Source of the DNA: Acidimicrobiales bacterium
Lineage (GTDB): Bacteria; Actinomycetota; Acidimicrobiia; Acidimicrobiales; DATDAH01
Assembly (NCBI GenBank): GCA_016794585.1
Contig: JAEUJM010000019.1
Coordinates: forward strand, 62,001 to 126,000
Length of the DNA stretch: 64,000 bases
Direction: 5' to 3'
The position numbers and the translations under genes were made by a program. The notes beneath the pieces are model-generated. The model had not been told where the DNA came from. It searched no databases and saw nothing but the letters and a program-made list of their open reading frames with translations. Within the stretch, counting starts at the first letter, position 1, and each line of letters begins with the position of its first letter. This document shows, piece after piece, positions 16,663-31,906 of the stretch.

Positions 16663-19578
16663 ATGGGCGACGGGGCGGGCGACGGGGCGGGCAACGTGGC
16701 GGGGTCGGGCCGATCGAGGGTCCCTGGCACCCGCGACCTGCTCGAGCGCAGCGCAGAGCTCGCCCACGTCGACCAGGCCTGCGAGGCGCTGCGGGCGGGC
16801 CTCGGCACCCTCACCCTCGTTCGGGCCGCCCCGGGACTGGGCAAGTCGAGTCTGCTCGACGCCGTCGCCGGCACCGCCGCCGCCGAAGGCATCGAGGTGC
16901 TGCGGGCACAGGGCAGCGAGCTCGAGCAGGACTTCGCCTTCGGTGGCGTCCGACTCCTGCTCGAGCCCGCCCTGGCGCGGCTGGACGAGCCGACGAGGCG
17001 CCGGGTGCTGTCCGGCGCGGCCGCACGAGCCGCCGGCCTGCTCACCGCCGACGGCGAGGAGGGGGGTGGCAACCTCGCCGGTGACCTGCCCAGCGTGCTC
17101 CACAGCCTGCACTGGGTGGTGGCCAACCTCGCAGATCGGCGTCCCGTCCTCGTGGTGGTCGACGACCTGCAGTGGCTCGACCAGCCCAGCCGCCGGTTCC
17201 TGCTCCACCTCAGCCGCCGCATCGGCGACGTCGCGGTCGCGGTGGTCATCGCCTCCCGCCCCGAGGAGCCGGCGAGCGATGACGGGATCGAGGCGCTTCG
17301 TCGGCTCCCGGCCGCGGTCGTCCTCGATCTCGCGCCCCTCAGCGACGCGGCGGTCCTCGCGCTCCAGCGGACGGGAGGGGCCGGCGCGAGCATCGCCGGG
17401 GACGACTTCGTGCGCCTCGTGGGTGGGAACCCGCTCGTCGCCTCCCAGCTCCTCGCCGACGCCGACGTCGTCTCGTTGCGGGGATCCGACGTCGGCGATG
17501 CCGAACCGTCGGGTCTCCCGGGCGTCGAGGACCTGGTGCACCGCTCCGTCGAGCACCGGATGCGCGATCTCGACGCCTCCGCGCTCGGCGTGCTGCGGGC
17601 GGCGGCCCTCGTCGAGGACGGCACCACGGTCGACGTCGTGGCGGCGATGGCGGGCGTCAGCGCCGCCGTCGCCCGCCGTGCCGTCACCGGACTCGCCGAC
17701 GCCGCCCTCCTCGCCGCGGGCCCCTCGGTCACCTTCGCCCATCCCGTCGTGCGGGCCGCGGTGCGCGACACCGTCGTGCCCGATGAGGCGGCGGCGCTGC
17801 ACGAACGGGCCGTCGAGGTCCTCCTGGCCCGGCAGGCACCGGCAGAGGTGGTCGCCCCGCACCTCGCCGCGTCCCCACCCCGCGGCGACGCCGGCCGGTT
17901 CCGCCTGCTCCACGCCGCCGGACGCCGGGCCCTCAGCGCGGGGTCGCCGCACGCGGCCGTCCGGTGGCTCCGACGGGCGTCCTACGAACCACCGCCGGAC
18001 GAGCGGCGCATCGCGCTCCTGACCGACCTCGTGCGGGCCGAGATCGGTGCCCGCGACGACGAGTCGTGGCGGACCCACCTCGACGAGCTGACGGCAGGGG
18101 GCGACGCCCAGGAACGGTCGGCGGCGCTGGCCAGGGTGGGCGACGCCCTCCTCGTCGCGGGCGAGCTCGCCGCCGCCGGCGACGCCTTCCGCCAGGGCCT
18201 CGCGCTCTTCGCCGACGACCCGACAGGTAGTGACCCCCACCTCGACCTCCGCCTCCGACTGGTGGCCGGGCTGGCCTTCGCGGCCCGCTCGGACCCTGCG
18301 GCCCGACGCGAGCGGGAGCGGGCGCTCGCCCTCGTCCTCGCCCAACCGCCGACGGCGCTCACGCCGGGCGGCAGGGCCCTCCTGGCCCAGGTGGCGTTCG
18401 AGCGGGCTCGTCGTGTGGACGGGGCCCACGACGTGCGCGAGCTGGCGGAGCGAGCCCTCGCCCACGAGCCCGGCGGCGCCGGTCTCGCGCCGGGCTCGAG
18501 GCCCTACCTGTTGGTCGTGCTGTGCCTCACCTTCCTTGACGACTGGGAGGCGGCGGGGACGCTCCTCGACACGGCGGTCGACACCGCTGCCCGTTCCGGG
18601 CGAGTGGTGCCCTACACCGCCTCGCTGCTCTACCGGGCCCGGGTCCGGTTCCACACGGGTCGCATCGCGGACGCCCTCGGCGACATCAACGATGCCCACG
18701 ATGCCGGTCGGGACCTCTTCGACCTGGACCTCCCCGGCCTCGAGGCCACACGGGCCCTCGCCCGCCTCGAGGCCGGTGATCCCGCCCCCGACGTGCTGGC
18801 CGACCTGGTCCTCCCGTCCGGGCGGGCCTGGGACCAGGGGCCAGGTTTGGATCTCTGGCTGCTGGCCCGATCCCAGGCGCGCCTCGCCGTCGACGACGTC
18901 GCGGGCGCCGTGGCCGACGCCCGCGAAGCGGGGCGGCGACGGCAGGCCGCGGGATCCGAGAACCCGGCGACGGCACCCTGGCGGCGCACCCTGGCGCTGG
19001 CCCTGCACCGGTCCGGCGACCACCGCGGGGCGATGGCGCTCCTCGACGAGGAGCTCGCGCTGGCGCGCGCCTTCGGCGCACCACGACTGACCGCGGTCCC
19101 CCTTCGCCTGCTGGGGTCCATCGAGCAGGACCGCACCGCCGCGCTCGACCATCTCGAGGAGGCGCTGGCGCTGATCGAGTCCACACCCTGCGCGCTCGAA
19201 CGGATGAAGGTGCTGCTGGCGCTGGGGGCGGAGACCCGGCGCCAGGGGCAGCCGGTGGCGGCCCGCGCCCACTTGCGTCGAGCCGTGCAGGAGGCCGATG
19301 CCGGCGGCGCCCGGGCCGTCGCCGATGCCGCCCGCGCCGAGCTGCGCCTCGCCGGCGGGCGCCTGCGACGGGTCGCGCTCGTGGGCCCGGCCGCGCTCAC
19401 GCCGGGCGAGCGCCGCGTCGCCGAGCTCGCCGCCGAAGGACTCACCAACCGTGAGGTCGCCCAACAGCTGTTCGTGACCGTGAAGACCGTCGAGTACCAC
19501 CTGGGGAACGCCTACGGGAAGCTCGGCGTGCGGTCGCGGCGCGAGCTCCCCGCCGCCCTCACGCCGGCGAGCGCCTAG
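16663..19578 (+). CDS. LuxR-family large ATP-binding (LAL) transcriptional regulator
   Basis: 971-residue MalT-like STAND regulator. A short N-terminal leader precedes an AAA/NACHT-type ATPase with P-loop AAPGLGKSSLLDA (about residue 55) and Walker B VLVVVDDLQWLDQ (about 165). A long helical, TPR-like middle follows. The C-terminal LuxR DNA-binding domain has LTPGERRVAELAAEGLTNRE and VKTVEYHLGNAYGKLGVRSR. Such proteins bind an effector in the middle part and activate transcription when ATP-bound. The target genes are not evident. It ends stop-to-stop with the convergent ligase gene (CTAG shared). Confidence 0.93.
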   Translation: MGDGAGDGAGNVAGSGRSRVPGTRDLLERSAELAHVDQACEALRAGLGTLTLVRAAPGLGKSSLLDAVAGTAAAEGIEVLRAQGSELEQDFAFGGVRLLLEPALARLDEPTRRRVLSGAAARAAGLLTADGEEGGGNLAGDLPSVLHSLHWVVANLADRRPVLVVVDDLQWLDQPSRRFLLHLSRRIGDVAVAVVIASRPEEPASDDGIEALRRLPAAVVLDLAPLSDAAVLALQRTGGAGASIAGDDFVRLVGGNPLVASQLLADADVVSLRGSDVGDAEPSGLPGVEDLVHRSVEHRMRDLDASALGVLRAAALVEDGTTVDVVAAMAGVSAAVARRAVTGLADAALLAAGPSVTFAHPVVRAAVRDTVVPDEAAALHERAVEVLLARQAPAEVVAPHLAASPPRGDAGRFRLLHAAGRRALSAGSPHAAVRWLRRASYEPPPDERRIALLTDLVRAEIGARDDESWRTHLDELTAGGDAQERSAALARVGDALLVAGELAAAGDAFRQGLALFADDPTGSDPHLDLRLRLVAGLAFAARSDPAARRERERALALVLAQPPTALTPGGRALLAQVAFERARRVDGAHDVRELAERALAHEPGGAGLAPGSRPYLLVVLCLTFLDDWEAAGTLLDTAVDTAARSGRVVPYTASLLYRARVRFHTGRIADALGDINDAHDAGRDLFDLDLPGLEATRALARLEAGDPAPDVLADLVLPSGRAWDQGPGLDLWLLARSQARLAVDDVAGAVADAREAGRRRQAAGSENPATAPWRRTLALALHRSGDHRGAMALLDEELALARAFGAPRLTAVPLRLLGSIEQDRTAALDHLEEALALIESTPCALERMKVLLALGAETRRQGQPVAARAHLRRAVQEADAGGARAVADAARAELRLAGGRLRRVALVGPAALTPGERRVAELAAEGLTNREVAQQLFVTVKTVEYHLGNAYGKLGVRSRRELPAALTPASA

Positions 19579-21065
19579 CCCTCGGCGGCCTCGAACAGCG
19601 CGATGACCTCGCGCTTCTGCACCTTCGTCGTGCCCGTGCGGGGCAGGTCCTCGACGAAGAGCACCCGCTGTGGCGCCTTGTAGGAGGACAGGCGATCGGC
19701 CGCCCACGCCACGAGGTCGTCCGGCGACAGGTCGACGGTCCCGTCCACTCGAACGGCCGCCGCGGGCACCGCTCCTTTGACCTCGTCGGGCAGGCCGACC
19801 ACGGCGGCTTCGAGCACCGCGGGGTGCTCCTCGAGCGCGGCTTCCACCTCACGGGCGTAGACCGAGTAGCCGCCGTGCATGAACACGTCCTTCTTGCGAC
19901 CGGCGAAGGTCGCGGTGCCGAGCATGCCCTTGCGCACGAGGTCGCCCGTGCGCAGCCAGCCGTCTTCGGTCACCGCGTCGGCGGTGGCCTCGGGGCTGCC
20001 CCAGTAGCCCTTCAGGACGCCGGGTCCCTTCATCCAGAGCTCGCCCTCGCCACCGACCCCGACGTCCTGGCCGTGCTCGTCGACGACCTTGAACTGGTAG
20101 CCGGGCAGGGGCAGGAGCGAGTCGCCGACGGCGGGCAGCGAGAGCTTGGCCGCCGCCGCGCCCCCGGTCTCGACCATGCCGTAGCCCTCGACGAACAGGG
20201 CGTCACCGACCGCTCCGACGACCGGGAGGTGCGCGGTGGCCCCCATCCGCCGGAAGGCCGCGGCGAGGTCCGGAGGCATGGCGTCGGCCCCGGAGATCCA
20301 CACCCGCACCGACGACAGGTCACGCTCGGCGGCACCGGCCTCCCACATCATGCGGTACATCGCCGGCACTCCGATGAACAGCGACGACTTCCGCGCCTCG
20401 AGCGCATCGAGCACGTCGGTGGGGCGGAACCGGCCGAGGAAGTACACGGGGATGCCGGCGCAGGCGAGGCCCACGAGGGCGGCGAAGCCCATGATGTGGG
20501 CGATGGGCAGGCCGACGACCGCCTCGTCACGGCGGAGCCAGTCCGGGTTGGCCGCGCCGGCGTTGACCGCACCGATCAGGGCCCGGTGGGTGAGCTCGGC
20601 GCCTTTCGGCTTGCCGGTGGTGCCCGAGGTGTAGAACAGCGCGGCGATGTCTCCCGGCTCGGCCGGAGCCGCCTCGTCGAGCGGAGACCCGCCGTCGAGC
20701 TCGTCGAGGTTCCGCACGACGAGATGGGCGCCCGAGTCGGCGATGACGTGGTCGACCTCCTCGGGGCGCATGCGGTCGTTGACCGGCACGGGGAGCGCAC
20801 CGGCGCGACTCACCGCGAGGCAGGCGAGGAGCAGGTCGTAGGTGTTGGGCAGCGCGAGCACCACCCGATCACCCGGCTCCACGCGCTCGGCGACGGCACC
20901 CGCCCAGCGAGCCACCCGGTCGGCGGCGTCGGCGTAGCTCAGGTCTTCGCCGTCGGCCTCGGCGACGAGGCGGGTCGAGCCGTGGAACGACGCCAGTCGG
21001 GCGAGCAGCGTGCCGAGGGTCAGATCACGACCCAGGGCGAACTGGGCCCGGGCGAAAGGGTTCAT
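19575..21065 (-). CDS. Acyl-CoA synthetase (AMP-dependent ligase)
   Basis: 496-residue member of the ANL adenylating superfamily, converting a carboxylic acid to its CoA thioester via acyl-AMP. The phosphate-binding loop FYTSGTTGKPKG, GYGMVETGG (motif with the aromatic Glu), WLRTGDLV and FAGRKKDVFMHGGYSVYARE are present. The C-terminal catalytic Lys lies in RTGTTKVQKREV. The chain length preferred cannot be read. Nothing nearby suggests a pathway; fatty-acid activation is the default. Confidence 0.93.
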   Translation of the reverse strand: MNPFARAQFALGRDLTLGTLLARLASFHGSTRLVAEADGEDLSYADAADRVARWAGAVAERVEPGDRVVLALPNTYDLLLACLAVSRAGALPVPVNDRMRPEEVDHVIADSGAHLVVRNLDELDGGSPLDEAAPAEPGDIAALFYTSGTTGKPKGAELTHRALIGAVNAGAANPDWLRRDEAVVGLPIAHIMGFAALVGLACAGIPVYFLGRFRPTDVLDALEARKSSLFIGVPAMYRMMWEAGAAERDLSSVRVWISGADAMPPDLAAAFRRMGATAHLPVVGAVGDALFVEGYGMVETGGAAAAKLSLPAVGDSLLPLPGYQFKVVDEHGQDVGVGGEGELWMKGPGVLKGYWGSPEATADAVTEDGWLRTGDLVRKGMLGTATFAGRKKDVFMHGGYSVYAREVEAALEEHPAVLEAAVVGLPDEVKGAVPAAAVRVDGTVDLSPDDLVAWAADRLSSYKAPQRVLFVEDLPRTGTTKVQKREVIALFEAAEG

Positions 21066-21136: not shown

Positions 21137-22447
21137 TCAGGCCTCGCCGACCACCACGAGGTCGTCGTAGGTGTACGTGGTCGTCACGCCGGCGGCGGCG
21201 TCCTGGCTCACGGTTCCGCAGAACGACAATCCCGAGAAGCCCTTCACCACGTCATCGTTCACCGACACCAGGCGCTCGCCGTCGACGAACACGTCGAGGT
21301 TGCTGCTGTCCCCGTTGGTGTTCCAGCCCGCGGAGAGCCGCCAGGGGCCTTCGCCGGCGAACGCTCCCGTCACCTCGTCGAGCAGCACGAACTCGCCGTC
21401 CACGGGGTACAGCCCGATCGAGGCGTAGCCGTCAGCCGAGAGCGCGAACTCGTAGGTGCCCTCGGCGCCCTGGAGGCACAAGCCACCGAAGGCACCGGTG
21501 AGATCGCCGTCGAGGGTGGCGGTGATCGTGCCCACGTCGGGGATCGGTGCCTTCACCGGCACGCCGGCGTCCACGATCCCCGTCATCTCGAACGCGTACG
21601 CCCCGTCGACGTAGCCGGCCGTGCCGCTGGGGCCCGAGAGTTCGGGGAAGCCGCTGTCCGGATCCGAGAAGTCGTCCTCGAGCTCCAGTGAGCCGTCGCC
21701 GGCCTCGCCGGCGATGTCCACGCTGGTGAAGGTGGCCCCGCCGGCGGTGGTGCCGTCGAGGTTCACCGCGATGCCGGTGAACCCGGCCCCGAGGCCGTCG
21801 TCGTCGGTCGCCGACGCCACCTCGACGCCCCCGACGGTCAGGGTCAGCGTCACGGGACCACCGTCTCCCTCGCCGAGACACGTACCCGCCACTTCGACCG
21901 GCTCCGAGGTGGCCAGCCCCTCGTCGACGCCCTCCTCGAGCACGACGGGCTCGTCCGGCGCGGCCTGGCTCCACCGGGCGATGGCGAAGGCACCGGAACC
22001 GGGGTCGACGGTGAGGGTGTAGAAGGCGTTGGGACCGGTCCGGCTCACCCGGCAGGACACCCCCGCCTGGGCGCCGCCTTCGGTCGGCCCGGCGAGGCCC
22101 ACCGTCGTGGTGCTGTCGGCGACGTCGACCGGACCGTCGTCGGCGTAGCCGAAGAACGACGGGGTGCCATCGACCGACACCTCGTAGCCGTCGGCGGTGA
22201 AGGCGGCGGAGAACTGGTCGGTCTCGGACTCGCCCCAGCCGTTGGCGTCGTCCCCCATGTCGTCGTCGAACAGGGGCTCGAGGTCCGGCGCCGTCGTGGC
22301 CGTGGGGGCCACCGTCGTGTCGACGGAGGCATCGGCCTCCTCGTCTCCACCGTCTCCACCACCGCCTCCACAGGCGGCCAGGACGAGCGCAGCGGCCACC
22401 AGGCACGCGAGCGCGCCGCGCCGGGTCGAGAGGCGAGAGGTCGTCAT
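21137..22447 (-). CDS. Secreted lipoprotein with two laminin-G/concanavalin-like repeats
   Basis: 436 residues. The ATG at 22447 follows AGGAG at Shine-Dalgarno distance. The signal peptide ends in a lipobox (LVLAAC, Cys about residue 26), so the protein should be lipid-anchored outside the membrane after a Gly/Asp/Thr-rich linker. Two homologous beta-sandwich halves follow, starting LFDDDMGDDANGW and EDDFSDPDSGFPE, each with a G-Y-x-(V/F)-x pattern and a cysteine pair, like jelly-roll or concanavalin-like domains that often bind carbohydrate. The ligand is unknown. It is divergent to the YibE/F gene. Confidence 0.8.
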   Translation of the reverse strand: MTTSRLSTRRGALACLVAAALVLAACGGGGGDGGDEEADASVDTTVAPTATTAPDLEPLFDDDMGDDANGWGESETDQFSAAFTADGYEVSVDGTPSFFGYADDGPVDVADSTTTVGLAGPTEGGAQAGVSCRVSRTGPNAFYTLTVDPGSGAFAIARWSQAAPDEPVVLEEGVDEGLATSEPVEVAGTCLGEGDGGPVTLTLTVGGVEVASATDDDGLGAGFTGIAVNLDGTTAGGATFTSVDIAGEAGDGSLELEDDFSDPDSGFPELSGPSGTAGYVDGAYAFEMTGIVDAGVPVKAPIPDVGTITATLDGDLTGAFGGLCLQGAEGTYEFALSADGYASIGLYPVDGEFVLLDEVTGAFAGEGPWRLSAGWNTNGDSSNLDVFVDGERLVSVNDDVVKGFSGLSFCGTVSQDAAAGVTTTYTYDDLVVVGEA

Positions 22448-22645
22448 GAGAGTTCGGCTCCTGGGAGATCGGGGGGAGGGCACAGCCATGCCGCGGGAGA
22501 GGTGCCCCGGCACTGTCGCGGGCGGCCCCGCGGTCAGCACTAGGGGTCGCCCCCAGGATTAGGACGGCGGTCCGCGTCGGCCGCGCCCTCGCGCGCGAGC
22601 CTGGGCCCCGGTCGAATCGAGAAATCACCCGAAGGACGCGACGAG

Positions 22646-23944
22646 ATGGCCCATCGCCACGGCAACCGGCCCGAGGCCGAGCACGTGCGCCGCGGCCTCA
22701 ACTGGTTCGTGGGCGCCGTCGCCCTCGTCACGGTGCTCGGCGTCGTGGTGCTGTGGCCCCGCGGCGAGGGCCCCGACCTGGGCGCCAGCACCCAGGGCCT
22801 GATCTACGTCGACGCCACTGTCACCCGGGTCGACACCACCGACTGCACCGACATCGACGAGCAGCTGCCGACCGAGTGCCAGGAGGTGACCGTCCGGCTC
22901 ACCTCCGGCCCGGAGCGCAACGACCTCGCCACCTTCCTCAGCTCGGACATCGACTTCAGCGCCCCGGAGTTCTCCGAGGGGGACGACGTGGTGCTGCTCT
23001 ACAACGCCCTCGCCCCCGAGGAGTTCCAGTACAGCTTCGTCGAGTACCAGCGCTCGACGCCCCTCGTCTGGCTGACCGTCGTGTTCGTGGTCGTCGTCGT
23101 GGCCGTCGGCCGCTGGAAGGGCGTGCGCTCGCTCGCCGGGCTCGCCCTCAGCCTGGGCGTGATCATGCTCTTCCTGTTGCCGGCCCTGCTCCGGGACCAG
23201 AACCCGGTGGCCGTCGCCCTCGTCACCACCTCGGTCATCGCGTTCGCTGCCCTCTACGTCGCCCACGGCATCCGCGCCTCGACCACGGTCGCGCTCGTGG
23301 GCACCCTCGCCAGCGTGGCGTTGATCACCGTGCTCGCCGCCGTCCTCGCAGGGGTCGCCGAGCTCACCGGCCTCAACGACGCCAACGTCCAGACCCTCCG
23401 GGTCACCGCGTCAGCGCTGGACCTGCGCGGCATCGTCATCGCCGGCATGGTGATCGGCGCGCTGGGCGTGCTCGACGATGTCACCGTCACCCAGGTCGCC
23501 GCCGTCGACGAGCTTCGCCACGCCAACCCCGACCTCAGCGCACGCGCCCTCTACCAGGGGGCCATGCGCATCGGCCGCGACCACGTTGCGTCCACGATCA
23601 ACACGCTGGTCCTGGCCTACACCGGCGCGTCGCTCGCCCTCCTGCTCTTCTTCCAGCAGGAGGGGCGCGAGCTCGGTCGGGTGATCACCCGAGAGGTGGT
23701 GGCCATCGAGATCGTGCGGGCGCTGGTCGGCAGCATCGGCCTCGTGCTGTCGGTGCCCATCACCACCGCCCTGGCCGTGGCCACCCTGCGTGACGACGCA
23801 CCCGGGGACGCCTCGGCCGCGTCCGCGACGGGTGCCGACCGTGCGGACGAGGCCTCCGATCACCCGGGAGCGACAGCCGACGAGCCCGGCGGGGGCCAAC
23901 CCCGCTGGGACGACTTCGGTCCCGCCGACCAGCTGGACCTCTAG
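22646..23944 (+). CDS. YibE/F-family membrane protein
   Basis: 432-residue polytopic protein. An N-terminal helix (about 20-40) is followed by an outside beta-rich domain of about 100 residues, then six or seven membrane helices typical of YibE/F. These include VGRWKGVRSLAGLALSLGVI, GALGVLDDVTVTQ and the segment AYTGASLALLLFF. A hydrophilic acidic tail ends the protein. The family has been linked to transport, but no substrate is established. The start ATG 22646 is preceded by GAAGGA. Confidence 0.88.
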   Translation: MAHRHGNRPEAEHVRRGLNWFVGAVALVTVLGVVVLWPRGEGPDLGASTQGLIYVDATVTRVDTTDCTDIDEQLPTECQEVTVRLTSGPERNDLATFLSSDIDFSAPEFSEGDDVVLLYNALAPEEFQYSFVEYQRSTPLVWLTVVFVVVVVAVGRWKGVRSLAGLALSLGVIMLFLLPALLRDQNPVAVALVTTSVIAFAALYVAHGIRASTTVALVGTLASVALITVLAAVLAGVAELTGLNDANVQTLRVTASALDLRGIVIAGMVIGALGVLDDVTVTQVAAVDELRHANPDLSARALYQGAMRIGRDHVASTINTLVLAYTGASLALLLFFQQEGRELGRVITREVVAIEIVRALVGSIGLVLSVPITTALAVATLRDDAPGDASAASATGADRADEASDHPGATADEPGGGQPRWDDFGPADQLDL

Positions 23945-23945
23945 G

Positions 23946-24527
23946 TCAGGCGCTCTGCGCCTCCCAGGTGAACCCGGCAGTGGCCGAGCGCCCCTGGGCG
24001 GCGTTGTCGTCGCGCAGGACGACCGTGACCCGGTACGTCCGGGAGGCGGGGTCGGTCGCGCCGGTGAACCCGCCGAGGCCGCTCGCGTAGCCCGTGTGGG
24101 CGGCCCCGAACTCGGCCAACGTGCCGGAGAAGAGAGTGGTCGAGGGCACGAAACCGCTGCATGACGACGCCCCGCCACCGCTGCCGGCCTCGATGTCGAC
24201 CTCGAGGAAGCCAGCCAGGCCGTTCCCCCCGACCTCACCGTAGAGACGGACGTCGGCGGTCAGCGACCCGTTGTAGTCGACCGCGATGCAGCGCGTCCGC
24301 GCGTCGCCGGGGGCGAGGTTGGCGACGTCGAACAGGACGCTGCCGGCGTCGTCGTCGCTCAGCACCACGTCGCCGGCGCTGAAGGTGTTGGTCGAGTTGT
24401 CGGTGGTGTCGACGAAGGCCGCCCGGGTTCCGCCCAGCAGGAGCACCGCCACGAACGCGGCCGACACCACGGCCGCCACGGAGACGACCGCAAGTGCCCG
24501 CCGTGACCGCTCGCGTCCTGTACCCAC
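23946..24527 (-). CDS. SipW-type exported protein (TasA/camelysin-like), copy 1
   Basis: 193 residues from GTG 24527. The N-terminus has twin basic residues, a hydrophobic stretch and then LLGGTRAAFVDTTDNSTNTF, followed by SAGDVVLSD. This is the hallmark of SipW-dependent signal peptides, with cleavage expected near GGTRA. The rest is a beta-rich domain with a cysteine pair (RTRCIAVDY and SSCSGFVPS). A paralogue at 28026 shares DDDAGS-LF, a PG turn, C-I-V-Y-G and the TFTWE-like end. It is divergent from the signal peptidase gene that probably processes it. A surface fibre or matrix subunit is the likely role (inference). Confidence 0.82.
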   Translation of the reverse strand: MGTGRERSRRALAVVSVAAVVSAAFVAVLLLGGTRAAFVDTTDNSTNTFSAGDVVLSDDDAGSVLFDVANLAPGDARTRCIAVDYNGSLTADVRLYGEVGGNGLAGFLEVDIEAGSGGGASSCSGFVPSTTLFSGTLAEFGAAHTGYASGLGGFTGATDPASRTYRVTVVLRDDNAAQGRSATAGFTWEAQSA

Positions 24528-24683
24528 CCTGTGCCCTTCGCTGCCGACGGCGCTGACGGTTCCCCTGTCGGCGGCGCCCGGACCGGCGCCAATGGGCCGA
24601 ACGACCTATTTGGCCGGCCCCGACCTCCCCTCGCCGAAAACCTCGCCTCGGGGCGGGAACGACCGATGGGTCCCGGAGAGCAC

Positions 24684-25289
24684 ATGGCTGTGGACATGAC
24701 TGTTGCCGAGCCGGCCGCACCACCGTCGGGCGAACGAACCACCAACGACCGAGGGCGGACCGGGGAGCGCACCCTCCTCCAGCGCGCCGCGCCGGTGGCC
24801 AGCCTGGTGTGCTGGTTCTACCTGTCGATCGTCGCCTGCCTCCTGGTCTGGGTGTTCGTCGTCCGCCTGCTCGTCGGGTGGACACCGATGGTGGTCACGA
24901 GCGGATCGATGCAGCCCAGCATCAATCCGGGCGACATCATCCTCTCCGGCGCACCCGCGGATGGCGGCGAAGGTCTCGAAGAGGGGACGGTGGTCACGTT
25001 CTCCGACCCGGTACGTCCCGGAGGGACCCTCACCCATCGCATCGAGCGGGTCACCGCCGACGGCACCTACGTGACGAGGGGAGACGCCAACGTCGCCGCC
25101 GACTCCTACGAGGTGGCTCCCGGCGACGTGGAGGGCGTGGGCCGCCTCCTGATCCCTGCGGTGGGCCTCCCCAAGGTGTGGCTGGAGCGAGGCGACCTGG
25201 CGCTGATGGCGCTCTGGGCCGTGGGCACCGGACTCGCGCTCTGGGCCGTGCTGCGGCGGACCCGGCGACCCGGCGAGGCCATGCCGTGA
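24684..25289 (+). CDS. ER-type/SipW-type signal peptidase I
   Basis: 201-residue S26B-type peptidase. After a polar N-terminus and one membrane helix (about 30-60), the catalytic Ser lies in VVTSGSMQPSINPGD. A His in LTHRIERV replaces the Lys of ordinary type I peptidases, which defines the SipW/ER/archaeal class. The GDAN segment follows, and a second helix sits at the C-terminus. The start ATG 24684 is preferred over 24666 because GGAGAG lies before it. Co-transcription with the GGDEF-EAL gene is implied by a GTGA overlap. Expected substrates are the proteins at 23946 and 28026. Confidence 0.92.
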   Translation: MAVDMTVAEPAAPPSGERTTNDRGRTGERTLLQRAAPVASLVCWFYLSIVACLLVWVFVVRLLVGWTPMVVTSGSMQPSINPGDIILSGAPADGGEGLEEGTVVTFSDPVRPGGTLTHRIERVTADGTYVTRGDANVAADSYEVAPGDVEGVGRLLIPAVGLPKVWLERGDLALMALWAVGTGLALWAVLRRTRRPGEAMP

Positions 25290-27940
25290 CCGCTCCACCC
25301 GTCGGTACCCCCGACACCGCCCTGGCCCCTCCCCCTCCCCCTCCCCCGCCGGCCCCGTTCGCCACCGCACCAGCATCGACGCCGCACCCGGGCGTCACGC
25401 CCGGCGCCGCCCCACCGTCCGCACCGCCGGCGCCCGCGGCGGCACCGACGGCCGGCGGTGCCCCGGCCGGCTCCGCCCCGCCGCCCCACGAGGTGACACC
25501 CAAGGTCGAGCGGCGCACGTCGGTCCGGTCCAACCCGCGCCGGTCGGCCCAGGTCATCGGCTCCGCGCTGCGGCGGATGCGCTTCATCGTCGCCGCGCTG
25601 CTCTTCGTCCAGTACGCCACCTACCGGCCGGGCCCCGGCGACCCCACCCTGCCGACCTCGGGGGTGATCTTCGGCCTCGCCGTCGCGGCCGTGCTCGGGC
25701 TCATCAGCCTCATCTCGCTCGCCGGTGAGCGGACCTCCGACCCTCGCAAGCAGTCGCTGCTGTCGTTCGTCGAGATCTCCGCCGACAGCGCCCTGGTGCT
25801 GGCCCTCGCCACCTCACTCGACGTGTCCGGCCGCGACATCATGTGGGTGTTGCTCGTGGTGCCCGTCCTCGAAGGCGCCCTGAAGTACCGACTGCGCGGC
25901 GCGATGGCGGTGTGGGCCCTCATCTCCACCGCGTACATCGCCCTCATGGTCAACGCCGCCGGCGCCGCCCAGGAGGAGGTGCTCGCCGCCATCGACCTCG
26001 CCGTCCAGCGCGTGGGCGTCATCCTGCTCGTCACCATCCCGGCCGGCTACCTGTCCGAGCAGCTCCTGATCGACATCCGCAGCCAGCGCGACGCCTGGGA
26101 GCAGGCCTCCGAGCGGGGCAAGCTCCTCGAGACGGTCGCCGAGGCCGGTCACCGCGTCACCAGCATCGAGGTCGAGGTCGTGTCCGCCGTCACGTCGTCC
26201 GCCCTCGGGCTCGGCTTCGACGCGGTCGACCTCGCGGTGCGGCGTCCGTCGGGCGATTGGTTCGTCACCGGCACCCAGTCCACCAGTGACCTCCATCTTC
26301 CCGGCCCCGAGCGGCCCGCGGGTGGGGCCGTGGCCGCCGCCGCCACCCACCGCACCATGGTCAGCGATCGCTCCACCGACGTCCCCGAGGAGCTCGTCGA
26401 CCTCCAGAGCGCCGGCCTCGAGGTCGTGGTGGCGAGCCCGCTCCACGCGCTGGGCGCGTCGGCGTCGCTCCGGGCCGGCGCCCGGGCGGGCTCGACGGTG
26501 AGCGCCGCACAGTTCGAGTGCCTCGAGCTGTTGGCGGCGCAGGCCGGCGTGGCCATGCGCAACAACGATCTGGTGGCCGAGCAGCGGGCCATGCGGGACC
26601 AGCTCGAGCACCGGGCCTTCCACGACGGTCTCACCGGCCTGCCCAACCGGGCCCGCTTCCTCCAGAAGCTCGAGGAGTCGGTCACCCGGCCCGCGCCCGT
26701 CGACGAGCAGGCCGCCGTGCTGTTCATCGACCTCGACCGCTTCAAGCCCGTCAACGACAGCCTCGGCCACGACGCCGGCAACGAGCTGCTCATCGCGGTG
26801 GCCCAACGCCTCGTGCGGGCGGTCGGGGCCGAGGACATCGTGGGTCGCCTCGGCGGCGACGAGTTCGTGGTGCTGCTCGACCGGGTCGCCACCGCGGACG
26901 ACGCCACCAGGGTCGCCGAGCGCCTGGTGGGCGCCCTCAACGAGCCCTTCGTGGTCGCCAGCCACGAGGTGGCGATCTCCTGTTCCATCGGCATCGCCCT
27001 GGCGCCGCGCCCGTTCACCAACCCCGCCGAGCTCGTCCGTCGGGCGGACCAGGCCATGTATCGGGCCAAGGCCGGTGGTCGGGCCCGCTGGGCGCTCTAC
27101 CAGGCCGGACACGACACGGCGTCGGTCACCCGCCTCCAGCTCGAGGCCGACCTCCGGACCGCGTTGCAGCGCGACCAGCTACGCCTCGTGTACCAGCCCA
27201 TCTACCGGGCGTACGACCAGTCCATCGTGGCGGTCGAGGCCCTCGTGCGCTGGGATCACCCCCAGCACGGGGCCATCCCGCCGAGCACCCTCATCCCGAT
27301 GGCCGAGGAGTCGGGACTCATCGTCGACGTCGGCCGGTGGGTGCTGCGCACCGCCACCCGCGCCCATGCCCAGTGGCGCCAGGCCCCCCGGGGCGCCACG
27401 CTCCTGCTCGCCGTCAACGTCTCCCCCAGCCAGCTGAACCACCCTGCCTTCAGCGCCGACCTCGACCGCATCCTCGGCGAGACGGCCATGCCCCCGGCAT
27501 CGCTCCTCCTCGAGGTGACCGAGAACGTGGTCGCCCTCGGCAGCGATCTCGTCGACCTTATGAAGAGCCTGCGGGCCCGCGGCGTGCGCCTCGCCCTCGA
27601 CGACTTCGGGCAGGGGCAGACGTCATTGCGCCACCTCCGCGAGCTCCCCCTCGACGTGTTGAAGATCGACAAGGTGTTCGTGGACGGCCTCGCCGGCGAG
27701 GAGGACCACGACCGGGCCATCGTCCGATCCGTCATCGGCCTGGCCCACGAGCTCGGCCTCCGCGTGATCGCCGAGGGCATCGAGGTCGAGGAGCAGCTCG
27801 TGCTGTTGCGGGAGATGCGCGCCGACCTCATCCAGGGCTACCTCCTGCACCGGCCCACGAGCCCGGAGCAGGTCGCCGTCCTCCTCGGCGGCGTGCCCAC
27901 CCCGCTGGCGGCCCGACCGCCCATGGGGGTGCGAGCATGA
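25286..27940 (+). CDS. Membrane GGDEF-EAL c-di-GMP turnover protein
   Basis: 884 residues. A long Pro/Ala N-terminal tail (about 1-85) is followed by five or six membrane helices (about 95-260), a GAF-like region (about 290-430), a diguanylate cyclase domain with intact LGGDEFVVL, and a phosphodiesterase domain with AVEALVRW (ExLxR), DDFGQGQTSL and IAEGIE. Both catalytic signatures are complete, so either activity is possible. It overlaps the signal peptidase stop (GTGA), and its own stop overlaps the next micro-ORF (ATGA). It probably controls the neighbouring export module, or answers to it. Confidence 0.95.
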   Translation: MTAPPVGTPDTALAPPPPPPPPAPFATAPASTPHPGVTPGAAPPSAPPAPAAAPTAGGAPAGSAPPPHEVTPKVERRTSVRSNPRRSAQVIGSALRRMRFIVAALLFVQYATYRPGPGDPTLPTSGVIFGLAVAAVLGLISLISLAGERTSDPRKQSLLSFVEISADSALVLALATSLDVSGRDIMWVLLVVPVLEGALKYRLRGAMAVWALISTAYIALMVNAAGAAQEEVLAAIDLAVQRVGVILLVTIPAGYLSEQLLIDIRSQRDAWEQASERGKLLETVAEAGHRVTSIEVEVVSAVTSSALGLGFDAVDLAVRRPSGDWFVTGTQSTSDLHLPGPERPAGGAVAAAATHRTMVSDRSTDVPEELVDLQSAGLEVVVASPLHALGASASLRAGARAGSTVSAAQFECLELLAAQAGVAMRNNDLVAEQRAMRDQLEHRAFHDGLTGLPNRARFLQKLEESVTRPAPVDEQAAVLFIDLDRFKPVNDSLGHDAGNELLIAVAQRLVRAVGAEDIVGRLGGDEFVVLLDRVATADDATRVAERLVGALNEPFVVASHEVAISCSIGIALAPRPFTNPAELVRRADQAMYRAKAGGRARWALYQAGHDTASVTRLQLEADLRTALQRDQLRLVYQPIYRAYDQSIVAVEALVRWDHPQHGAIPPSTLIPMAEESGLIVDVGRWVLRTATRAHAQWRQAPRGATLLLAVNVSPSQLNHPAFSADLDRILGETAMPPASLLLEVTENVVALGSDLVDLMKSLRARGVRLALDDFGQGQTSLRHLRELPLDVLKIDKVFVDGLAGEEDHDRAIVRSVIGLAHELGLRVIAEGIEVEEQLVLLREMRADLIQGYLLHRPTSPEQVAVLLGGVPTPLAARPPMGVRA

Positions 27941-28029
27941 TCCTCGAGGCTGCGGAGCGGAGCGGAGCAGCGGCGCTCGACGAACCGGATCCCGAAGGGG
28001 CACCGACGGAGGAGGTGCAAGGCGAATGA
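27937..28029 (+). CDS. 30-residue coupled micro-ORF
   Basis: Encodes MILEAAERSGAAALDEPD and twelve further mostly acidic residues. It begins in an ATGA overlap with the GGDEF-EAL stop and ends in an ATGA overlap with the next gene start, filling the gap exactly. GGAGGTG near its end can serve as ribosome binding site for the gene at 28026. It may be a real small acidic protein or only a translation bridge; no homology is recognised. Confidence 0.5.
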   Translation: MILEAAERSGAAALDEPDPEGAPTEEVQGE

Positions 28030-28655
28030 GCCGGATCCTGGAGCGTGAGAGCGGCCCCATCGACCTCGCCGCGGAGGAGGCCAGCACCGGGCGCACCACC
28101 GCCCGCTCGCTCGCCACCGCCATCGCACTGTTGATCGTGAGCGTCCTGGTGGTGACCCGGTCACGCGCCGCACTCGGCACCCAGGACGCCGGGGCCGACG
28201 TGAGCCTCGGCGTGGGCTCGGTCGAGCTGACCGACGACGACGCCGGCAGCTCGCTCTTCGCGGTGGACGACATGGTCCCCGGTCGGCCCGAGCGCGACTG
28301 CATCGTGGTCAGCTACGAGGGCAACGTCCTGCCCGTGACCGTCGGCCTGTCCACCGAGGCCGAGGGGACGCTCGCCGGGCTCCTCGACGTGCAGGTCGAG
28401 CGGGGCACCGGTGGCGCCTTCCAGGACTGCACCGGCTTCACGCCGACCGAGACGGTCTACGACGGCACGCTCGCCGGCCTGGCCGCACGCGGCGACGGTG
28501 TCGAGGCGGCCACCGTGACCGAGCTGCCTGCCGCGGAGACGTTCCGCTTCACCTTCGAGCTGGCCGGCGTGCCCGAAACCGACGAGACCGACGCCACGGC
28601 GTCCGCCCGGTTCATCTGGCAGGCCGACCCCGCCGACGTCCCCGACGAGAACTGA
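28026..28655 (+). CDS. SipW-type exported protein (TasA/camelysin-like), copy 2
   Basis: 209 residues. There is an N-terminal cytoplasmic stretch of about 25 residues, one hydrophobic helix ending VVTRSRAALGTQDAG, then a beta-rich domain. It is homologous to the product of 23946: VELTDDDAGSSLFAV, MVPG, CIVVSYEGN, a second cysteine in QDCTGFTPTETVYDGTLAGL, and the end ASARFIWQ. The signal is less canonical than in copy 1 because GGT is missing. As last gene of the sipW-like operon it is probably its direct substrate. Confidence 0.78.
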   Translation: MSRILERESGPIDLAAEEASTGRTTARSLATAIALLIVSVLVVTRSRAALGTQDAGADVSLGVGSVELTDDDAGSSLFAVDDMVPGRPERDCIVVSYEGNVLPVTVGLSTEAEGTLAGLLDVQVERGTGGAFQDCTGFTPTETVYDGTLAGLAARGDGVEAATVTELPAAETFRFTFELAGVPETDETDATASARFIWQADPADVPDEN

Positions 28656-28704
28656 CGGGCCAGCTGCCAGGCCCTCAAGCACCGCCAACCAGGCCTCACT
28701 CAGA

Positions 28705-31689
28705 TCACGCCCACGCCAGCGAACTCGCTATCGCCGTCTCAGCTTCCTCAACGAACCTGGTGAGAAGAGGACCAGCTCCAGCGCCGCAGGTGCCACGCAC
28801 AAGCTCATTGAACGGCTCAAGGAGGCTGAGTGCTGGCTCCGCGACTCCTGGGGAGTTCAATACATTCAACTGCCGCCCGAACTCAGATCGGTCATCGATA
28901 CGACTCCACACCGGTGATTCGCAAGGAATACGATCACCCCAGCCGAACTCAAAGCTCGCGGCGCTCAATGACAAATCGTCAATCGTTCGGCGTCGTCGCT
29001 TCCGCTGATCCGACCTGCCCCCGGACCGATGACCGACCTGAATGGACATTGCCAAACTAGAGGCATATATAGGTGCCTCGAAGCGCCCCGTCTCTCGATA
29101 CTCTTGGAGTAACTGAGAGCCAGACCGAACAAGATAACCACCTACGACCACACATCTCTCAAGGGACAAATTGTTGAGGAATGCCAGTGGCATACGAAAG
29201 TCAAGGAGAAGGAGACACGACTCGAGAACGCCAGTAAACTGGGTATCGACCTCACTGGTGAAGTCAGCGCCACCTACCAGGCGACCCAGACTTGCCCCCG
29301 GCCGAATAGTGACGAGCGAATCCACGGCTTCGATACGACTCACTGCCGAGGATTGAGCCTGCTCGACCCTGATCTCAGACACCGATTCGGCAATGCTCAA
29401 ACGCCTAATAGCTCCTCCGCGGACACTCACGACGCCCTTGACTAGGTCGACGCTGGTAGCGGTCCCACCGTCCACCGACACCGCCAACCGGTCGCACTCG
29501 GTGAGAGCCACCGCGCTCACGTCACGGAGCACCATCTCTCCGACCACATCCTCGCACGTCACCGACTTGGCTCCACGAAGTTCCAAGCGAACGTCAGATC
29601 TCAGAATACTTGTGGCGTCAATACTGCCGTTAAGCACGCACTGATCAAGCTTGCAATCCTCAAGCGACAGCTCCAAAATGTCCAGTTGGTCGAACACGAT
29701 GTCTCGCAAGTGGGATTCCCTGATCCGCAAGGTCCTTCGTCGAACATGTGGAACCGAACCCTTGTCCAGGTCTGCGTGAGACACGTCTTGGGGACCATAG
29801 AACAAAACGGCGAGCAGATTACTCCGGATCGCAGATTCACGCGATCTTCCTGCGTCTTGCAGTCGATTCGTACGAGAGATCCACTCCGCAATCGCTACAT
29901 GCAGGTCATTCGATCCGCCTGAGTCGGTCACAACCGTCATGGCGCCGAGAAAGTACAGCACTTCTTGCGAAAGCGGTGTCTCCAATTCCGTCATATCAGA
30001 GCCGACAAGCACCGTCTGGCGTATTTTCGACGCCAAGAAGAATTCTAGGAACGACTTGTGGACGAATCGAAGATTGCCGTCATCATCCGTTGTGAGGAAG
30101 GAACACGTACGAAGATCGGTCATGACACGTTCGACAGCATTACCGTGTGTCTCCGAACTAACTCGCGGTGGGCTCGGTTCCAGTCGCCGGGCGAGTCGTT
30201 CTGCTTCCTCCCGACTTAGATGAAGTTGCTGTAGGGATGTCATTCTCCACGCACACAGCTCAGCGAACTGTCGACGCTTCGTGACACCCAGACCCTTCCT
30301 ACGTGCTGGTACCTTATGCGGATCGTCTTCCAGCCGGATCTCGGTATAGACCTCGTAAAGCTCAGATGCCCCAAGCGACCGAGTGCGATCATATATGTCG
30401 ATACCTCCCGAAAGCACGGTCCTGACTATCATCTGCAGAAGAATCGGTCTAGTAACCAAGTCCGAAAGGTCGTATACCGCCTCTAGGAAGTCTAGAACAT
30501 CACCAGGATCCGCTATACCCAGATCTGCAAACTCATCGCCTAGAGCGCATACATACGAGCGCACTTGATCCATCGTCAGAGGTTGAATTACGAAGGTCTT
30601 GCACTCCCACACCGGTGCCGGTCGATCTCCACGCTCGCGCTGCATTTCCTGCTGTAGTGTCGAATACAGTGTTCGGGCGCGCGAACTCGTGACGTGGCGG
30701 TCTTCATCACCGGTGGCAGCGCGCGAAGACACTGAGCCGGCAGCCGGTTTCGTCAACCGTTGATACTCAGCTCTTGTAGCGAAATAGCTGGGCCGGCTCG
30801 ACAGGATTGCTGGAGACCTGCTGAAGAAGAGTGGCGCTATGCGTGCCATATACGCAGCGCGATCCTTTGCCGAAGGTTGGACGGCGATCTCGTCAAATCC
30901 ATCGAACAGCAGCAGGTACTGTTCCTCGTCAACCAGACGCCAGAACGTACGAAGATCGCATTGACTGCCCAGGTCCTGCATTAGAGATGCTCGTATGTAC
31001 GAGTCGAGATCGGGATAGTCTAGCAGGCCCTTAAGGCTCATCATGAATGGAACGCGCCCCTCTTTAGATGCAAGATGAGACTGAAGGAGTTGGTATTTGA
31101 TGCGCTCCAACGCTGTGGTCTTGCCCGCACCATAGTCGGCAAGAAGAACGACGGAGTTGGTCTCGGGGTCTGCATCAAGAGTAGAAACCAGCGTCAGCAC
31201 AGTGGCCCCTGACGCTCGGCGGCCTTTCAAGGCGAGTCCTATGTCAATGAACCGCGTCGAAACCTGCGTGCGCTCGTACTCCAACATCCAGTTGCGCAAA
31301 TGATCCTCGTTGTAGACGAGGTCTCGGCGTACATCATCGATGGTGGATAGTCTAATCCGGTGATCTGTCTCGACCAGCGCTCGAGATGCGCGCGTAATCG
31401 CTGTGTTGGTAACGAGTACCGCCGTAGCAACTTCTCCGGCGGTTAGCAGAATAGTTGCCGTATGAATGAAGTCTCGCACCTCTTGTATCGGAACCGAGCC
31501 TGTCCTACGGTGCTTAACCTCAACTGCTATTCGTAGAGGGCGGATTCCTCCAACTGAGCGCTCCGCAAGAACATCAATCTGACATTGCCGGATCAGCACA
31601 TCCTCGGTGACGCTGTAGCCAAGAGCCCGATATAGACGCGCCACTTCGTGTTCAAAGGCGCGCCATTCCTCATCGTCCTTAGAGGTCAT
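28705..31689 (-). CDS. Mrr-like nuclease-NACHT NTPase fusion, probable anti-phage protein
   Basis: 994 residues. Residues 1-80 form a PD-(D/E)xK restriction-endonuclease-like domain: Glu13, Asp39 in QIDVLAE, Glu57 and Lys59 in VEVKH. A NACHT/STAND NTPase follows, with Walker A ADYGAGKTT (184-192), Walker B LLLFDGFDE (259-267) and sensor SSRPSYF (297-303). A helical part comes next, then from about 650 short repeated beta segments (DLRxLxLxxC type) that could form the sensing region. Bacterial NACHT proteins are known to defend against phage. The gene is much A+T-richer than all others here and uses TTA, ATA and AGA codons, which points to recent transfer. Confidence 0.88.
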   Translation of the reverse strand: MTSKDDEEWRAFEHEVARLYRALGYSVTEDVLIRQCQIDVLAERSVGGIRPLRIAVEVKHRRTGSVPIQEVRDFIHTATILLTAGEVATAVLVTNTAITRASRALVETDHRIRLSTIDDVRRDLVYNEDHLRNWMLEYERTQVSTRFIDIGLALKGRRASGATVLTLVSTLDADPETNSVVLLADYGAGKTTALERIKYQLLQSHLASKEGRVPFMMSLKGLLDYPDLDSYIRASLMQDLGSQCDLRTFWRLVDEEQYLLLFDGFDEIAVQPSAKDRAAYMARIAPLFFSRSPAILSSRPSYFATRAEYQRLTKPAAGSVSSRAATGDEDRHVTSSRARTLYSTLQQEMQRERGDRPAPVWECKTFVIQPLTMDQVRSYVCALGDEFADLGIADPGDVLDFLEAVYDLSDLVTRPILLQMIVRTVLSGGIDIYDRTRSLGASELYEVYTEIRLEDDPHKVPARRKGLGVTKRRQFAELCAWRMTSLQQLHLSREEAERLARRLEPSPPRVSSETHGNAVERVMTDLRTCSFLTTDDDGNLRFVHKSFLEFFLASKIRQTVLVGSDMTELETPLSQEVLYFLGAMTVVTDSGGSNDLHVAIAEWISRTNRLQDAGRSRESAIRSNLLAVLFYGPQDVSHADLDKGSVPHVRRRTLRIRESHLRDIVFDQLDILELSLEDCKLDQCVLNGSIDATSILRSDVRLELRGAKSVTCEDVVGEMVLRDVSAVALTECDRLAVSVDGGTATSVDLVKGVVSVRGGAIRRLSIAESVSEIRVEQAQSSAVSRIEAVDSLVTIRPGASLGRLVGGADFTSEVDTQFTGVLESCLLLLDFRMPLAFLNNLSLERCVVVGGYLVRSGSQLLQEYRETGRFEAPIYASSLAMSIQVGHRSGGRSDQRKRRRRTIDDLSLSAASFEFGWGDRIPCESPVWSRIDDRSEFGRQLNVLNSPGVAEPALSLLEPFNELVRGTCGAGAGPLLTRFVEEAETAIASSLAWA

Positions 31690-31906
31690 GGTAATGTTCC
31701 AGTTGTTCGGTTTGCCTCATCGTCTACGAGCATCGGAACGGTAGCATCGTCGAACGGCAGTTGGCGATGAAGTCGGGCGGTGAGCGCCCCTGCGACGGTT
31801 ATCGCTGTTTGTCGAATCCTCCCTACATGTGTGTGCTCGCGGACCTGGGGCCCGGCACAGGGTCCTCACTTGACCCGATCTGGACAGGGTGGTTCTCGGT
31901 GCCCGG
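31690..31906. promoter_or_regulatory. Upstream region of the NACHT gene
   Basis: 217 bp between the NACHT start and the pcrA stop; no gene was found. Base composition rises from A+T-rich near the NACHT start to normal near pcrA, so the boundary of the transferred segment probably lies here. TACCGT, a weak TAnnnT -10 candidate, reads toward NACHT. No att site or terminal repeats were recognised. Confidence 0.3.

Follow-up and report, generated by a model that had tools for sequence, protein, structure and literature searches.

Among the NLR-like proteins of bacteria, bNACHT25 and bNACHT32 carry an N-terminal PD-(D/E)xK DNase; a D48A substitution abolishes their defence, and DNA is degraded on MS2 infection (PMC12169576). 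Bacterial TRADD-N conflict proteins have been described with pentapeptide repeats among their C-terminal repeats (PMC8195603), so a pentapeptide tail on an immune-type protein has precedent. In the literature we found no beta-helix pentapeptide sensor experimentally shown in a bacterial NLR-like protein, and no characterisation of the Rhizobium Mrr-NACHT proteins described below. The NACHT switch domain itself is of the same kind as in animal NLR immune receptors.

The window analysed here, a 64-kb stretch of DNA from an Acidimicrobiales genome, contains on its minus strand (28705-31689) an open reading frame of 994 aa with an ATG start and no internal stop, which in our view probably encodes an NLR-like protein of the bNACHT type (STAND class), a horizontally acquired single-gene system with a predicted role in defence. 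The observations behind this reading are the domain order, the catalytic residues, the existence of homologues of the same build, the foreign base composition and the sporadic distribution; from these we infer, by analogy with described systems, sensing, oligomerisation, DNA cleavage and defence. The protein has the tripartite bNACHT-type layout, with an N-terminal effector, a central NACHT module and a C-terminal part of putative sensing role, and its parts map onto the window as follows.

28690..31900, no strand: A+T-rich insert, approximate extent, comprising one gene and, up to pcrA, about 215 b of intergenic sequence (100-b G+C profile, same-order synteny)
31297..31689, minus strand: Mrr-type PD-(D/E)xK nuclease, residues about 1-130 (Pfam, conservation in relatives, AF2, Foldseek)
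30720..31272, minus strand: NACHT NTPase core, residues about 140-323 (Pfam NACHT, Foldseek, motif table)
29890..30612, minus strand: post-NACHT helical or winged-helix-like region, residues about 360-600 (alignments, AF2 helices, profile matches)
29080..29739, minus strand: degenerate pentapeptide-like, strand-rich region and putative beta-helix sensor, residues about 651-870 (family profile, AF2 strands, period-5)
28705..29079, minus strand: C-terminal tail including the stop codon, residues about 871-994, poorly conserved (8-20% identity, pLDDT < 45)

Residues 8-120 match Pfam Mrr_cat (5e-11, 43.2 bits against a cut-off of 21), and the motif table has the entire catalytic set in place, E13, D39, E57 and K59, just as an earlier note on this DNA had it. 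The three Rhizobium relatives all have E13, D39 and K59, and one of them has D in place of E57; among all aligned relatives with a nuclease domain D39 is always kept, and E57 and K59 are kept apart from that one E57D and a K59R in a Magnetococcales protein (L005). The AF2 model is confident over this domain (pLDDT 73-93) and its fold matches the Mrr-like AF1548 (Foldseek, 7.5e-4); the predicted nuclease fold is thus retained on structural modelling. With the Mrr_cat match and the D...(E/Q)xK set, the domain can be assigned to the Mrr-type PD-(D/E)xK nucleases on sequence grounds. An alternative assignment to the inactive NA-iREase1 type was rejected: its score does not reach the cut-off of that model and is lower than the Mrr_cat score, and none of the catalytic residues is missing.

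The central module matches Pfam NACHT at residues 180-301 (3.4e-10, 40.4 bits against a cut-off of 26.7). Walker B (LLLFDGFDEI, 259-268) is preserved with both acidic residues of the NACHT pair. Walker A reads ADYGAGKTT (184-192), in which GxGK[ST] is present and the first residue, a Gly in every aligned relative, is Ala184; Walker A is therefore not fully canonical, and the earlier claim of complete Walker motifs stands for Walker B but not for Walker A. By its P-loop and hhhhDGxDE motifs, the module can be assigned to the NACHT-clade STAND NTPases. The region that follows has a motif conserved in alignments with relatives (RFVHKSFLEFF, 541-551), profile matches to NOD2 and NLRC4, and AF2 helices. 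Model confidence is moderate over the NACHT/winged-helix part, and a Foldseek search of the AF2 model against the PDB returns NOD2 (1.7e-13), NLRP3, and Avs4 bound to a phage portal (8dgf, 1.8e-9); the uncertain arrangement of the domains in the model keeps the TM-scores low, and the matches accordingly speak for domain identity and not for the overall shape.

The Ala184 substitution could also mark a defence gene that has lost its function since capture and persists by chance, as could a sigma-70 promoter scan in which no promoter was recognisable for the gene. We consider such decay quite improbable, since the first Gly is the most tolerant position of the P-loop, sigma-70 scans carry little weight in genomes of high G+C, the frame runs for 994 codons without a stop, the catalytic residues are all kept, and the protein aligns with its relatives over its full length.

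Identity to the relatives is 28-37% in the nuclease, NACHT and post-NACHT parts but only 8-21% in the C-terminus, as would fit a rapidly changing sensor. The earlier note had described pentapeptide-like repeats in this C-terminus. The 994-aa sequence alone does not support them significantly (Pfam finds no C-terminal repeat match, and A(D/N)LXX-type repeats are not above cut-off), but a family profile made from it and the three Rhizobium plasmid proteins does: against solved pentapeptide-repeat PDB chains the profile gives 3e-12 for the whole protein and 1.3e-9 for the C-terminus only. Other lines of evidence are as follows: i) in a profile-profile comparison (hhalign), the C-terminus aligns with the clear pentapeptides of five other proteins (L001, L002, L005, L007 and L015) at 72% probability; ii) the three Rhizobium relatives have sub-threshold Pentapeptide_4 matches just after the NACHT part; iii) AlphaFold places successive strands at residues 653-788, at low confidence (pLDDT 50-60); and iv) a test for period 5 over residues 646-860 is not significant overall (p 0.053), although across the protein as a whole the 60-residue windows with the highest signal for this period are those that start at 630-670 (strongest at 630-720). 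A single-sequence AF2 model of residues 585-994 had a mean pLDDT of 40.8 and was left out of the fold search. Taking together the family-profile matches, the profile-profile alignment and the low-confidence strands, we conclude that the C-terminus is likely to be a degenerate pentapeptide-like beta-helix.

The chains matched by the family C-terminal profile include MfpA, Qnr and McbG-like proteins. MfpA, Qnr and McbG bind a topoisomerase, and the C-terminal beta-helix might similarly hold a topoisomerase, so that an attack on gyrase by a phage or toxin would free the nuclease and the protein would guard a host process. This strikes us as very improbable indeed: the repeat is very degenerate, and by itself it would be expected to match any pentapeptide fold.

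That the gene is A+T-richer than its surroundings, as claimed before, is plain from its composition: 55.5% G+C (57.7% at third positions) compared with 72.4 ± 1.6% (average and sd) and a minimum of 68.3% for 2985-b stretches elsewhere in the window, a deviation of z about -10. The genes of the Rhizobium relatives have a similar 52-56% G+C. The gene does stand alone between SipW/TasA-like genes and pcrA. The former belong to a compact module of normal high G+C adjoining the insert (23946-28655), which encodes two camelysin/TasA-like proteins (one with Pfam Peptidase_M73), a SipW-like signal peptidase and a GGDEF-EAL protein. No tRNA and no clear flanking direct repeats were found, a single 25-nt match at 76% being probably due to chance.

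None of eight relatives aligned around pcrA has the nuclease-NACHT gene there, and the site differs among them; in the closest (G017, 77% PcrA identity) 0.9 kb separates pcrA from the AMP-ligase-like gene, compared with 10.6 kb in the window. Relatives differ in the interval (21137-31906) that separates the AMP-ligase-like gene (19575-21065) from pcrA. Together these comparisons suggest a variable site downstream of pcrA. The gene is the only NACHT match and the only Mrr_cat match in its genome, and searches of 58 further genomes from its order and about 396 from its phylum, a set that lacks any second genome of its genus or family, yielded no full-length relative and only a few partial matches. 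A conserved position with normal base composition was thus not seen at order level (58 genomes, and eight relatives aligned around pcrA). We conclude from the deviant composition, sporadic presence and variable site that the gene is a horizontally acquired islet, in agreement with the earlier description of a transferred segment.

The closest relatives, QND17926.1, WP_082366437.1 and WP_167377947.1 (902-928 aa), are encoded on Rhizobium plasmids; they align with the 994-aa protein from one end to the other, with about 25% identity, and the core tree, built from 31 proteins, unites the four in one clade (support 100/99). A separate clade (100/100) contains, among others, proteins in which a ParA/MinD-like N-terminus precedes the Mrr-NACHT-pentapeptide core, some of them with WD40. 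Among its members are L005, L060, L002 and L007, and the N-terminal part of L005 and L007 matches the PADLOC candidate PDC-M28B. The combination of nuclease, NACHT and pentapeptides, taken in the earlier note for a possible variant architecture, is therefore not peculiar to this Acidimicrobiales genome, being common to the Rhizobium plasmid proteins and the larger ParA-like family. In 399 other sampled Pseudomonadota genomes all members recognised were distant, none of them belonging to the close clade.

Two of the plasmid relatives lie beside or near defence-type genes. Directly upstream of the Rhizobium gallicum relative is a PDC-S73 gene (PADLOC candidate, 2e-135); its product (L024:7552-9840) combines Mrr_cat with nSTAND3, and its first about 180 residues match short-Argonaute-associated (TIR/REase-PNTD) models. 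Another Rhizobium relative is flanked by IS66/IS21 transposases, with a DRT reverse transcriptase (RT_UG20, 6.5e-144) about 8 kb off. Just upstream of the Rhizobium leguminosarum relative, on the same strand, are two hypothetical genes with a 4-b overlap (L022:8139-9835), neither with a Pfam match; they are a possible operon partner of that relative and are absent from the window. In its own genome the gene does not lie in a defence island, and no recognised defence neighbours are present.

Two of the three Rhizobium plasmids are typed conjugative, and phage records contain no homologue of the 994-aa protein; viral contigs yield NACHT matches that are all remote, and the two of them that were annotated lack Mrr_cat and pentapeptide matches. 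It could accordingly be asked whether the same switch and nuclease respond to an incoming plasmid or conjugating DNA, in competition between mobile elements. We think this unlikely, since the PDC-S73 and DRT genes nearby are candidate or known anti-phage types. Plasmid defence systems, moreover, commonly target phage as well. In searches with the 994-aa protein, PADLOC (E <= 1) gave no named system and only PDC-S02 (1.5e-4) over the Mrr part, phmmer against the PDB gave one weak, irrelevant match, and NCBIfam gave nothing meaningful.

Returning to the reading that we prefer, a horizontally acquired NLR-like defence protein, we propose by analogy with bNACHT25/32 (PMC12169576) that the putative degenerate pentapeptide/beta-helix region at the C-terminus would keep the protein inactive until it recognises an invader-derived or invader-induced cue; that nucleotide exchange and oligomerisation of the NACHT module would follow and draw the N-terminal Mrr nuclease domains together; and that the assembled nuclease domains would degrade the DNA of host, phage or both and so stop the infection, probably through abortive infection. 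The plasmid neighbours of the close relatives and the bNACHT25/32 precedent would count for a defence role; Ala184, the absence of recognised defence neighbours, of a named PADLOC system and of a recognisable sigma-70 promoter, and the low-confidence C-terminal model count against it. The overall reading of the earlier note, an Mrr-NACHT defence gene, keeps its domains and its foreign insert and gains plasmid relatives, but loses its possible variant architecture and its complete Walker A.

We wish to stress that a further step is doubtful, namely that these proteins represent a small, undescribed clade of nuclease-NACHT receptors, spread between phyla by plasmids, with a degenerate pentapeptide beta-helix sensor, possibly one that senses a DNA-mimic or topoisomerase-linked cue. 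If the protein is active, it would extend the C-terminal detectors of bacterial NLR-like proteins by a beta-helix sensor, encoded compactly in one gene with relatives that move between phyla on plasmids. A sensor of pentapeptide type also points concretely to a trigger, DNA-mimic or topoisomerase-associated, which can be put to the test; failing that, the gene would be one more instance of a common nuclease-NACHT defence plan.

Compared with known proteins, i) those of the Rhizobium plasmids share the domain order, near-equal length, the catalytic and NACHT motifs, and pentapeptide-type matches after NACHT, but come from another phylum, are only 8-21% identical in the C-terminus, and have an intact first Walker A Gly; ii) L005 (Magnetococcales) and L007 and L002 (both Chlorobiota) share the Mrr_cat-NACHT-pentapeptide core at 21-25% identity, but have an extra N-terminus of about 320 aa (ParA/MinD-like where annotated), clear canonical pentapeptides and, in some, WD40, and they belong to the separate clade (100/100); iii) bNACHT25 and bNACHT32 (bNACHT clade 6), compared by description, likewise have an N-terminal PD-(D/E)xK DNase and a central NACHT in a single protein, but carry an NCH1 C-terminal domain (PMC12169576), whereas Pfam (E <= 1), which may hold no NCH1 model, finds no NACHT C-terminal domain in the 994-aa protein; and iv) Avs4/AVAST shares the nuclease-STAND-sensor layout (Foldseek match to 8dgf, 1.8e-9), but the 994-aa protein has no large TPR sensor and no match to the AVAST profiles in PADLOC, and the solved Avs4 chains are far longer (1534-1541 residues). 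By analogy, we infer that the 994-aa protein would work like a nuclease-type bNACHT or Avs protein.
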